DNA of 43,946 nt, from contig CAIPDT010000089.1 in the NCBI GenBank assembly GCA_903863905.1, forward strand, positions 1 through 43,946, in the 5' to 3' direction. Below, piece by piece: positions 40,901-43,946 of this stretch. The notes beneath the pieces are model-generated. The model was not told where the DNA came from and searched no databases. It saw only the letters and a list, made by a program, of their open reading frames with translations. Each line of letters starts with the position of its first letter. Positions within the stretch are counted from its first letter, which is position 1. A program made the translations under genes and the position numbers. The stretch comes from an uncultured Methylococcaceae bacterium (GTDB taxonomy: Bacteria > Pseudomonadota > Gammaproteobacteria > Methylococcales > Methylomonadaceae).

Positions 40901-42004
40901 CTAATGCGAAAGGTTTTGGAGTTGATAAGGTTCGGGTGATACTGCAGTGGGTCGTTTTAAAATCAGATCAACCATGAGCTGTGCGGAGGCAGGGCCCATG
41001 ATTAAGCCATTTCTAAAATGCCCCGCGTTAATGCTTAAATTAGAGATGTCTGAATGTTGATCAATATAAGGGACGCCGTGTTGCGTACCCGGTCTTAAAC
41101 CCGCCCAATGATGCAGTAAGGGCGCTTTTTTGAGGGCGGGTAAAAGGTTAACTGCAAAGTCGGTTAAACGCTCTTTGGCGGCTTGCGTGGTGTTTTTGTT
41201 AAAGCCATCATGTTCCACCGTACTGCCGGCTAATATTTTGCCATCGCGTCTAGGAATCAGGTATTGATCGCCTTCTAAGACCATACTGGGTAAGGTCTCA
41301 GGTGTGGCATCAAACAGTAACATTTGACCTTTAACAGGTGACACTTGTGGCGCTTGAGCACTGAGTTCAGGAAACAATTCTTTAAACAATGAACCCGTCC
41401 ATGCCCCTGCTGAGAGTATTAAGTGGTTTACAGGTAAGGTCTCGGTATCGGTTATCACGTGCGTGATGCGATCCTGACTACGAGTGACACCGGTGACAGT
41501 ACAATGTTCTTTAAGCGTTACGCCCTTGTTTACTAAATCCTGTATTAACGATTTGACCAAGCGAGGATTACGGGCTTGGGCAATGGTCGGTAGCCAAAGC
41601 GGTTGATGAGGCGCCGAGTTTAAGGAGTTAAAAAAATCTGGGAGCGTTGTTTCAAAAGGGACTTGATTGGTTTGGCACCATTGAATGGCTTGTTCCAGAT
41701 CAGGGTTTTGGGTTATGAGCAAACCACAAGGTGTCCATTCCGGGTCTTTTTGAGTGTCTGCTAATAATTCTGCGGCTAAGGTCGGATATAAACGTAGGCT
41801 TTGTACGGTGAGTTTCGTGATGGCATCGGCTTGTCGCCAAGGATAGATCGGTAGCAAAATACCACCACCTGCCCATGAAGATTCTTGGCCTAAGTCATTT
41901 TTTTCAATTACGGTAACGGTCGCACCGGCATTATAAAATTCCCTAGCAGTCAGAAGGCCAATAACGCCTCCGCCAATAATCGTAATATCTGGGGTGTTTG
42001 TCAT
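40901..42004 (-). CDS. thiO: Glycine oxidase ThiO-like FAD enzyme
   Basis: The 367-residue flavoprotein of the DAAO family begins with the dinucleotide motif [20 protein letters not shown] and [20 protein letters not shown], then has the FAD/substrate region [17 protein letters not shown] and [16 protein letters not shown]. This pattern matches ThiO, which oxidises glycine to iminoglycine for thiazole synthesis in thiamin production. A different amino-acid oxidase of the family is possible, because the other thiazole genes are not in the window. It starts at an ATG, with nothing obvious between it and the 344-bp region upstream. Confidence 0.87.
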
Positions 42005-42245
42005 GAGAGAGAGTTTAAAACAAATTCGCTAAAAAGACCTATTTTAAAGCAATATGGTTAATAGGGTGTTTTAATGATTAAAAACAAAATACCTTTATAA
42101 AATTAATGGTTTTTATGCGATGGCTTCGGTATCAGTTACCTTTTAGCGTTTATATTGACATGTATCTATACGGGTATTTTTAGGTAAGTGTTGTTACTTA
42201 TTGATAATTAACGGATAATTAATTTTAAAAAGATAATATTAATGC

Positions 42246-42274
42246 TTGTAGGTTAATAGCTTTGCTGTTATTAT
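42246..42274 (+). promoter_or_regulatory. Sigma-70-like promoter before the outer-membrane barrel gene
   Basis: TTGTAG (42246-42251) and TATTAT (42269-42274) are 17 bp apart and leave a leader of about 70 bases before the GTG at 42349. The 344-bp gap from 42005 is very AT-rich and has the inverted repeat AATTAACGG/ATAATTAATT near 42208. The gap also holds the divergent start of thiO; no RNA gene or ORF was seen. Confidence 0.4.
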
Positions 42275-42348
42275 TTCACCCGTGAAATCAAGTTTGTTGT
42301 ATTTATACAAATAGTTTGTAAATTAACAACCCATCAGGGGGAGAAACA

Positions 42349-43236
42349 GTGATCAATAATAATAAAAAATATTTAGGCGTAGCCTTGGCAACATTAACAG
42401 CAGCAACTTTAGTAGCTGCTCCACAAGCAATGGCAAAAGCAAAAGTAGCACCTGCTGTTGTAGCTAGCAAAACTGATGTTTTGGAAGCACAAGTACGTGT
42501 TATGCAAGACGAAATTGCGAGTTTAAGAGCTCAAGTTAATTCAGCAAGACCAGCTGCAGCGACTTCTTCAGCTGATTCTCAAAAAATTCAAGAGTTAGAT
42601 GCTTGGGTGGCTTCTGTTAAAGCAGATGGTCATAAAGCTCATGGCGCTAAATCTAAAGACAACATGTTGTATTTCCGTGGCGGTTATGTTCAAAATGATC
42701 GTGCGTTGCTTGCTACAACCAATTCTGGTGGTCCAGGAGTTTCATTAGCCGGTTCAACTGGTGGTAGCTCAAGCGGTTGGAATGTTGGTGCCGGTATTGA
42801 TTTCCATTTAAATGAAGGCTTATTTGGTTTAGTTGATAAAACTGATTTATTTGGTGAATTAGATATCAATTATGTTGATGTTGGCAGATATACAGGTAGT
42901 GTTACACAAACTGTTGGTGTTCCGCTGCCTGCAACGGTTAGCCAAAGCATGATGAGATTAAGCGCATCACCAAAAATTAAATTCTTAAAAGGCAGTGCAT
43001 TCAGGCCTTGGATTGTTCCTGTCGGTCTTACACTTAATTTTGTGAGCCCTCCATCACAACTTAATACCATTTCCTATTTGAAACCAGGTATGAACTTTGC
43101 CACTGGTTTTGATTACAATATTTGGAAAAGCTTGTACATTGGTGCAGACGCACGTTATTTCTTGGCAACTAGCCGACTTGATAATACTAACGTCAATGGT
43201 TTAACAGTAGGTGGTCAAGTCGGTTTCGGTTTCTAA
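42349..43236 (+). CDS. Abundant outer-membrane beta-barrel protein with coiled-coil stalk
   Basis: The 295-residue protein has a signal peptide ending near QAMAKAKV and then a predicted coiled coil (TDVLEAQVRVMQDEIASLRA). An Ala/Ser linker follows, and then a barrel from about residue 105 with alternating aromatic strands ending in VGGQVGFGF, the terminal Phe typical of barrels recognised by the Bam complex. Porin-like proteins with an N-terminal coiled coil attach to peptidoglycan in some groups, so it may be a structural porin, but I cannot name a family. The GTG start follows AGGGGGAG, a very strong ribosome site. With its own promoter and an excellent terminator, it is likely highly expressed. 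Confidence 0.8.
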   Translation: MINNNKKYLGVALATLTAATLVAAPQAMAKAKVAPAVVASKTDVLEAQVRVMQDEIASLRAQVNSARPAAATSSADSQKIQELDAWVASVKADGHKAHGAKSKDNMLYFRGGYVQNDRALLATTNSGGPGVSLAGSTGGSSSGWNVGAGIDFHLNEGLFGLVDKTDLFGELDINYVDVGRYTGSVTQTVGVPLPATVSQSMMRLSASPKIKFLKGSAFRPWIVPVGLTLNFVSPPSQLNTISYLKPGMNFATGFDYNIWKSLYIGADARYFLATSRLDNTNVNGLTVGGQVGFGF

Positions 43237-43262
43237 GCAACTTGCTTAAATCGTAATCCGAT

Positions 43263-43296
43263 AAAAAGGGTGGGGAGAAATCCCCGCCCTTTTTTT
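43263..43296 (+). terminator. Terminator of the outer-membrane barrel gene
   Basis: AAAGGGTGGGGA pairs with TCCCCGCCCTTT around a GAAA tetraloop, with one G-U pair, followed by seven T. It lies 27 bp after the stop codon and is the clearest intrinsic terminator in the window. Confidence 0.95.
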
Positions 43297-43493
43297 ATGC
43301 GTTAAATTGAGTAATGAGTTGTTGCGTCTTTGCGTCTTTTATACGAACTGACAAACATCATTCAGTAACGATGCTGTCCCACTGTGCGGCCTACTAAACT
43401 TACAATAGGGTCGTGTTCCTTTTTAAAGGTGGCTGTGTATCCTGCAGATTGCCCTTTACACAAAATAAACTACACCCTCCCAGGCACTACCTA

Positions 43494-43797
43494 ATCCAGC
43501 AAACAATTAACCAACTTCTGTACAAAAGTGACCTGATCCAGCAAACAATTAATGAACTTCTATACAAAAGTTACCCACTAATGTACAAATCTTGCCAACT
43601 AATGTGCTGGGTCAATCAACTTTTCTACAGAATCTTCCAAATAGTGTGCTTTCGAGTGCACGTTGTGCGCACTTCTTTCAAACAAGTACGCTCTCCAGGT
43701 CTAAAAGTACACGCTTGAAACCCACTTGTGCGCCCCTGAAGCAAGCTAATACGCTAAAGCTTAACTGAAGTGTATACTTTCTTGACTACTCTGTGCA
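43494..43797. repeat. Degenerate 21-bp periodic repeat array
   Basis: Reading in 21-bp steps from 43515, the hexamer three bases into each unit is CTGTAC, CAGCAA, CTATAC, ATGTAC, ATGTGC, TTCTAC, GTGTGC, GTGCGC, GTACGC, GTACAC, GTGCGC, ATACGC, GTGTAT and CTGTGC, ending near 43797. Eleven of the 14 fit NTRYRC exactly; two are close and one does not match. At the left end the 42-bp block 43494-43535 is repeated at 43536-43577 with 36 of 42 positions identical. The core ACTTCTGTACAAAAGT is nearly palindromic. The spacing of two helical turns suits protein binding on one face. A 101-codon frame (43413-43718) exists only because the period is a multiple of three and stop-free. Nothing else is recognisable in 43297-43946, apart from a short GCGTCTTT duplication near 43325. 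Confidence 0.75.
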
Positions 43798-43946
43798 TTA
43801 TTTTGCAGGATTTTTAGCGGTTTTTTCATACTCTCTGTAACCTCTACTAACATACCTTTAACGCCTAAACTTAGTAAGCGCTTAAATCTCGACGTCATTT
43901 ATTGTTCATTCTTATCATGCCAAACTTCCTCAATATTTACTGTTTA

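Follow-up and report, generated by a model that had tools for sequence, protein, structure and literature searches.

A 21-bp phased array in an uncultured Methylococcaceae bacterium, and similar arrays linked in part to one gene family

The DNA analysed here, which we call the window, is a stretch of 43,946 nucleotides that makes up the whole of contig C89 of an uncultured Methylococcaceae bacterium, the genome of which (the own genome in what follows) comes to 2.79 Mb in 179 contigs. Toward the right-hand end of the window, beyond a gene for a probable outer-membrane beta-barrel protein, lies an array of short sites that recur every 21 bp, in the following surroundings.

42349..43236, + strand: gene for an outer-membrane beta-barrel protein, to the left of the array (matches Pfam OMP_b-brl at E 8.5e-4, short of the cut-off; orthologues found)
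43260..43299, + strand: probable terminator (GC-rich stem and T-run) 3' of the barrel gene, read by eye
43413..43481: stretch common to own contigs C158 (85%, 43413-43479) and C172 (88%, 43448-43481)
43481..43489: CAGGCACTA, the same letters as the tip of an ISNCY-family element in genome G020; nine bases, which may be chance
43488..43797, + strand: 21-bp phased array of about 14 units, core TnnTRYRC, consensus near TAnTGTACA; an orphan, with no gene of the partner family (see below) found beside it
43489..43575, + strand: tandem duplication of 42 bp, or two periods, in the leftmost part of the array (Tandem Repeats Finder, 88% matches)
43835..43873, + strand: 39 bases shared without mismatch with the end of own contig C77, on which lies a prolyl-iminopeptidase-like gene
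43874..43946: dispersed repeat, found twice on C171 (16-210) and partly on C35 (1-54); the contig ends inside it

The stem 3' of the barrel gene is listed by a terminator scan for the minus strand only (43285-43272), and a similar stem and T-run, again seen by eye, also precedes an array in a relative, G006. Just before the window array, positions 43455-43479 resemble what we take to be the end of an IS256-family element; contig C158 too has a 21-bp array beside its copy of sequence of this type. To the right of the array, the contig end is a mosaic of repeats. The gene on C77 is presumably pip. In relatives, 15 of 28 barrel loci have pip downstream of the barrel gene in the flank that was fetched, and because of this order in relatives and the 39-base overlap with C77, the window array is probably located between the barrel gene and pip. 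A frame of 101 aa (43413-43718) spans much of the array and has no Pfam match, no frame is open through the whole length of the array, and an Rfam search over 42000-43946 gave one sub-threshold match only, outside the array.

An earlier note on this DNA, made from the sequence alone, had described fourteen rows at 21-bp spacing, eleven of them with a TRYRC core and two with near matches, and a recount gives exactly these figures: among the 21-base rows from 43515 to 43788, counted by eye, TRYRC stands at unit columns 5-9 in 11 of 14, rows 43620 and 43767 come near to it, and row 43536 is a non-match. The autocorrelation that had been proposed was run against dinucleotide shuffles (n=500) and yields the expected 21-bp peak, the lag-21 self-match over 43494-43797 being 0.466 as against 0.262 (sd 0.027) in the shuffles (z 7.6); in 300 shuffles of the same stretch, no lag between 2 and 69 gives a self-match above 0.372. 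With the duplicated left end removed (43594-43797), the lag-21 self-match is 0.443 (z 5.9). The suggestion that the sites are phased on one side of the helix is supported. In a local scan the periodicity rises at ~43450-43500 and fades after ~43800; the unit profile is dyad-symmetric (column-permutation p = 0.001) and its columns are unequally conserved (p = 0.019).

The own genome holds several homologues of the window array. The one on C96 matches it at 79% and is one unit shorter (221 bases as against 242), the pair differing by 33 substitutions and one 21-base gap. The idea that the array grew by duplication of whole units and later decayed is supported. Further homologues lie on C141 and C112, with pieces on C155, C154 and C14, and C35 bears an array of the same phase with a related core. 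Among 67 arrays compared with that of the window, only the one on C35 passes 0.005, and no gene-linked array is strongly alike. The window array has no DNA match in 150 relatives, with 4 candidates scored per genome, or among the plasmids or phages searched; an origin from a phage or plasmid was rejected on this ground and for want of a protein match to the partner gene, viral contigs included. Coding heptads, proposed earlier as a possible old repeat, were likewise rejected, for in 27 arrays all frames are interrupted by stops, the one exception being a single frame of the 88-bp piece on C35. A partial open frame of 95 aa occurs in the array on C97 of G032.

A search of relatives, which the earlier note had recommended, showed that 21-bp phased arrays do recur in the genus, but with cores different from that of the window. 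Arrays of this class have roughly 10-25 tandem sites at a spacing of about two helix turns. A second, unrelated array with a 21-bp period came to light through a full-length ISNCY relative in G020 and is present as five dispersed copies in G020 and G018 (L099-L103). These copies consist of the array and a hairpin tail (TTTAACCTGACAGG...CCTGTCAGGTTAA), and two of them, L102 and L103, retain only a piece of the partner gene beside the array. An array sequence model built on 63-bp trimers from four genomes has matches at E <=0.01 in 26 of 151 genomes (15 of 35 in the genus and 11 of 116 others); because the best match outside the genus has an E value of 0.0014, only the 11 genus genomes with matches at E <=1e-3 are counted as array-positive, and the own genome (0.0029) is not among them.

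The sampled genomes differ in their content of such arrays. G006 has nine non-coding period-21 arrays in 344 kb (two of the nine in stretches fetched on prior suspicion of arrays), together with five arrays at period 12, three at 14 (two or more of these inside the same arrays), five at 42 and one each at 15, 18, 28 and 41. One period-21 array was found in 80 kb of G029, one in 60 kb of G034 and a weak one in 20 kb of G017, while the samples of G003 and G033 gave one 22-bp array each, and those of G022, G025, G013 and G012 (20-60 kb) and of G019 and G031 (100 kb each) gave none. Within G006 the core varies from array to array, so that a core common to all sites was not found and one protein could hardly read all of the arrays by sequence. 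Such variation speaks against the idea of general-use sites, whether iterons, centromere-like sites or a nucleoid platform. Phased, often dyad-symmetric and dispersed arrays would suit such a use, but what we see are many dispersed chromosomal arrays with differing cores, the window array has no plasmid match, and the 100-kb samples of G019 and G031 contain no array at all, though the best gene copy of G019 adjoins one; iterons or a centromere, both named in the earlier note, find no backing, and we consider general-use sites of any kind very improbable. Among array neighbours read by eye, no rep or par genes were noted.

Some arrays occupy shared positions in several species. The stretch 3' of the barrel gene contains 21-bp arrays in 4 of 28 loci of relatives (one locus with too little sequence), namely in G006, G022, G011 and G008, with pip seen downstream in the first three; the barrel locus of G029 is borderline (0.56), and the high values at L116, L118 and L124, which are also high at 18 and 24, look like coding repeats. 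The four arrays share similar cores (ATGTG..CACA), unlike the core of the window array. Other arrays share a position near a gene that, from its translated sequence, we take to be fae (G033, G012, G017 and G032) or near a presumed nadB (G029 and G006).

The neighbour of several arrays is a gene of one protein family, of ~204 aa with an FN3-like C-terminus, which we call the partner family. Searches of its proteins against NCBIfam and PADLOC gave nothing better than E 0.019. Pfam fn3 matches in the genus are below the cut-off or absent (absent in five of eight proteins tested), and the protein of L355, in G131, scores above the curated cut-off (27.4 vs 25 bits). The best PDB matches of the family profile are mainly FN3 proteins, aligned over the C-terminal half (titin, E 1e-6). 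A single-sequence structure model was unusable (pLDDT 36), and no signal peptide is obvious by eye. Of the 35 genus genomes, 26 have the gene, each with between 1 and at least 26 matches (lower bounds for the richest five), the own genome having 11 matches, or 12 at E 0.001. Beyond the genus it was found in 2 of 86 other genomes of the order and, under first-look criteria so strict that just 7 of the own copies passed, in 0 of 397 others in a sample of the phylum. The partner proteins of G131, a genome of another family in the same order, are ~23% identical to those of the genus. All 11 array-positive genus genomes have the partner gene and the 9 gene-free genus genomes have no array match, an agreement that is not an independent test because the genomes are related.

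Pairing of gene and array was assessed from both sides. Starting from the genes, an array was accepted at an information content of >=0.7 bits per column over eight units, mostly non-coding, at periods 14-35. On this basis an array accompanies 25 of the 39 gene loci of the genus; the best period is 21 at 20 of these, 20 at 3 and 31 at 2. The 39 include 7 seed genes, which had come to attention through their adjoining arrays, and one own-genome locus, L322, that is counted both here and in the own set; with the seeds dropped, at least 13 of 32 have an array at period 21 even if every seed counted, a figure obtained by subtraction and not by a rerun. A period-21 array accompanies 4 of 12 partner genes of the own genome (one of the four scores higher at 14), and arrays accompany 7 of 12 gene loci of the other family, six at 22 bp and one at 21, compared with 4 of 56 controls, made up of 3 of 28 barrel loci (all three being barrel-locus arrays named above) and 1 of 28 ISNCY loci (L062). 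Fisher tests on these raw counts against the controls give 1.4e-6 for the genus, 0.028 for the own genes and 2e-4 for the other family; pairing thus exceeds the controls in two bacterial families. About half of the partner-gene loci show no array at this threshold; on own contig C152, a strong 21-bp array (1.54) in a wider stretch was passed over by the coding filter. In G131, 6 of 11 gene loci have 22-bp arrays, five of them distinct because L361 and L369 show one array twice, and one more locus has an array at 21 bp; the gene locus of G114 has none. L345 and L346, of one subfamily in G006, have 20-bp arrays. The best gene loci of G019 and G034 bear arrays, though random samples gave none for the former and one for the latter. 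Starting from the arrays, a partner gene or remnant was found in 13 of 38 array-bearing stretches, some of them cut by contig ends, and at 3 of 9 arrays in the G006 sample; 13 of the 14 stretches with tblastn partner matches have an array, L283 being the one without.

Where array and gene are linked, the array lies 5' of the gene in 25 of 31 cases, usually ~130-530 bp before the start codon, and 3' in 6 of 31 (the GATATC subfamily and L314); the arrays of G131 are all 5' of the gene. A repeat before the start codon of multi-copy paralogues, differing in length by whole units, is what would be expected of contingency tracts that tune expression, with the number of units and not recognition of the sites setting promoter activity. 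An effect of length, however, needs no conserved dyad cores with freer spacers between them, and such tracts would account poorly for the arrays 3' of genes or for the orphan arrays after the barrel gene in several species, so that we regard this explanation as unlikely.

The similarity of arrays was compared with that of the proteins next to them. Mean array similarity is ~0.31 at protein identities of <50%, 0.52 at 60-80% and 0.79 above 80% (two pairs), and the Mantel test gives p 0.015 for all pairs and 0.12 below 60% identity. The correlation fits joint inheritance and does not by itself demonstrate recognition; linkage alone would make similarity track protein identity only among close relatives. 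In the bolder interpretation, dozens of FN3-like paralogues would each have a private palindrome array with which they co-diversify, a doubtful proposal; if it were true, such pairs would correspond, in bacteria, to satellite DNA that has binding proteins of its own, and may serve in locus-specific silencing, tagging or self-recognition of mobile cassettes. The tie of the window array itself to the class would be through its anatomy, the shared position 3' of the barrel gene, and C112, on which a partner-gene remnant has a C89-type piece ~1 kb upstream of it.

Mobile elements are found beside some arrays. An ISNCY-family transposase fragment (NF033593) directly precedes the array on C141 (34767-34904) and on C14 (58-189), the end of C154 has the same joint with the fragment starting later, and on C110 of G020 an intact ISNCY sits between a partner-gene remnant and the array. 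These joints, and dispersed copies with differing flanks, would suit arrays that are the ends of an element carrying the FN3-like gene, with sites for a transposase that acts in trans, perhaps that of ISNCY. We think this improbable: outside the own genome, a 21-bp array is missing from the fetched flanks of 27 of 28 ISNCY loci (17 of the 28 belong to one genome); short of a systematic search, neither terminal inverted repeats nor target duplications came to light around the cassettes; and several species have arrays in corresponding places, 3' of the barrel gene and near fae. ISNCY was rejected as owner of the arrays, being adjacent in few loci only. The earlier suggestion of a Tn7-, Mu- or IS21-like element end is likewise unsupported: no such transposase was seen, and a transposon end was rejected for lack of a fitting transposase; a search with PF09299 (Mu-C) had no match in the own genome, and was uninformative in that control genomes were equally silent.

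The anatomy of the arrays is that of a nearly fixed two-turn period with dyad cores in two thirds of cases and freer spacers. Dyad symmetry reaches p<0.05 in 20 of 31 arrays and is not significant in 11, and the counts are the same (20 and 11 of 31) for the gene-linked arrays, a set that overlaps the first. Conservation over the unit is uneven in G020, G012, G029 and G032 (0/5000 permutations; core near TTTxRATATCwAAA), with several spacer columns at background identity in G020, G012 and G029; unevenness is not significant in the C158 unit (p 0.11). Core columns change less than spacer columns in 12 of 12 pairs of related arrays, at p<0.05 in 8, in a test for which the core was picked after seeing the consensus and ten of the 12 pairs are not independent. 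Whole units are gained and lost in clean pairs, as between C89 and C96; between G029 and G006 there are 25 substitutions, with gaps of 21 and 126 and a further single base near the edge, the two arrays of the G008 pair show 41 substitutions and two one-base gaps that cancel out (net zero), and the ten G018/G020 pairs have no gap in eight and short paired gaps in two. The array edges of G033 and G012 differ by one 15-base gap. The more divergent pairs G017/G032, G033/G017, G032 C97/C118 and G017 C98/G032 C118 have many small gaps, some of which are probably alignment noise from unit turnover; the C118 array of G032 slips register in places.

It could be argued that all of this is selfish or neutral satellite DNA, in which mutational duplications of 20-22 bp spread with linked genes and decay, with no binding function. 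Near-identical runs of units flanked by degenerate ones (G033 C8, G012 C259, C255) look like such duplications, every array has its own sequence, truncated copies are dispersed, most array stretches have no gene, and independently arising tandem repeats are described for Borg elements in the portion of PMC9879509 consulted. The many gene-less arrays favour satellites, which together with unit-number tuning form the main rival of the explanation given below. We nonetheless find satellites doubtful, since it would not lead one to expect uneven conservation and dyad symmetry in the unit, scarcity of phase-breaking gaps in clean pairs, or pairing with one gene family in two bacterial families.

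Dyads could also reflect RNA hairpins. With the centre of the unit set so as to favour pairing, covariation of mirrored columns is positive in 7 of 31 arrays; the four arrays at the barrel locus of relatives have positive values, and GATATC arrays tend to zero or negative values. Because there is no general covariation, hairpins were rejected for the class.

The explanation that we put forward, tentatively and as a real possibility, is that the class consists of operator-like sites of a dimeric protein that controls the neighbouring gene, and that the window array is a decayed member that has no gene. The dimeric protein, most likely the product of the neighbouring gene or a partner of that product, would bind the sites cooperatively along one face of the helix, and the bound array would control the gene or else silence or insulate the locus. 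When a unit is gained or lost, the remaining sites would stay in register, so that the strength of an array could change in steps; the window array has retained its phase with no gene alongside. The general idea of binding sites in the earlier note is supported in this sense, with the arrays as putative platforms for binding at many sites. Against operators it must be said that the 3' arrays (GATATC subfamily and L314) do not look like them, that pairing is weak when one starts from the arrays (13/38), and that about half of the gene loci are array-free.

Some known systems come near to these arrays. In operator and partition-site arrays of dimeric regulators, a single core serves a single protein; the arrays described here are similarly tandem near-palindromes on one face of the helix, for which cooperative binding is plausible, but they are many and their cores differ. 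The ends of IS21-type transposons carry several transposase sites and so resemble our arrays in offering several sites to one DNA-binding protein (here predicted), whereas our arrays have more sites, array-specific cores and, beside many of them, an FN3-like gene, with no istA/istB seen. Excerpts of PMC10122671 and PMC11208146 deal with IS21-type transposons. According to an excerpt of PMC6258824, the multi-copy vlhA genes of Mycoplasma gallisepticum are preceded by GAA tracts; multi-copy paralogues, a repeat tract before the gene and variation in tract length are common to both systems, but the repeat of vlhA is a trinucleotide, and ours are mostly dyad sites of ~21 bp that are array-specific, occur also 3' of genes and as orphans, and are next to genes with no surface role shown. 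Borg genomes, in the part of PMC9879509 seen, have many tandem repeats, nearly all of them unique, independently formed and in some cases intergenic, and thus share with our genomes the many intergenic arrays with array-specific sequences; their units come in many lengths and are perfect or almost perfect, whereas those here are mostly degenerate, 20-22 bp long and tied in part to one gene family. Searches of the open-licence literature, judged by titles and abstract beginnings, returned no description of these arrays or of the pairing, the vlhA tracts and the Borg repeats being the nearest works seen, and the family may be named elsewhere; in these methane-oxidizing bacteria, arrays and gene family may together form a two-part DNA element of a type not yet described. 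Should the pairing prove functional, such an element would consist of a gene family linked, in two bacterial families, to arrays that are free in sequence and nearly fixed in spacing. It would supply candidate protein-DNA pairs whose specificities are new, and would let the birth, phase-keeping and loss of bacterial tandem arrays be studied in a natural setting.

Other repeats were seen along the way. Outside the order, Flavobacterium amniphilum KYPY10 has near-uniform 21-bp arrays (L191, L207, L230 and L240) with a core like TTAATAYCTAAAAGG; they were found with a pattern demanding that core, and their 8-kb stretches contain no partner gene. In the own genome, contigs C1-C21 without C14 (191 kb) gave arrays at 20/40 bp and at 41 bp, part of them at contig ends; C12 and C17 show 21-bp signals. 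Tandem arrays of 40 or 41 bp lie at the end of C9, at the starts of C10 and C21 and at ~2157 on C12, several of them thus at contig ends, and the 21-bp unit at the start of C17 recurs 5' of the partner gene on C148.
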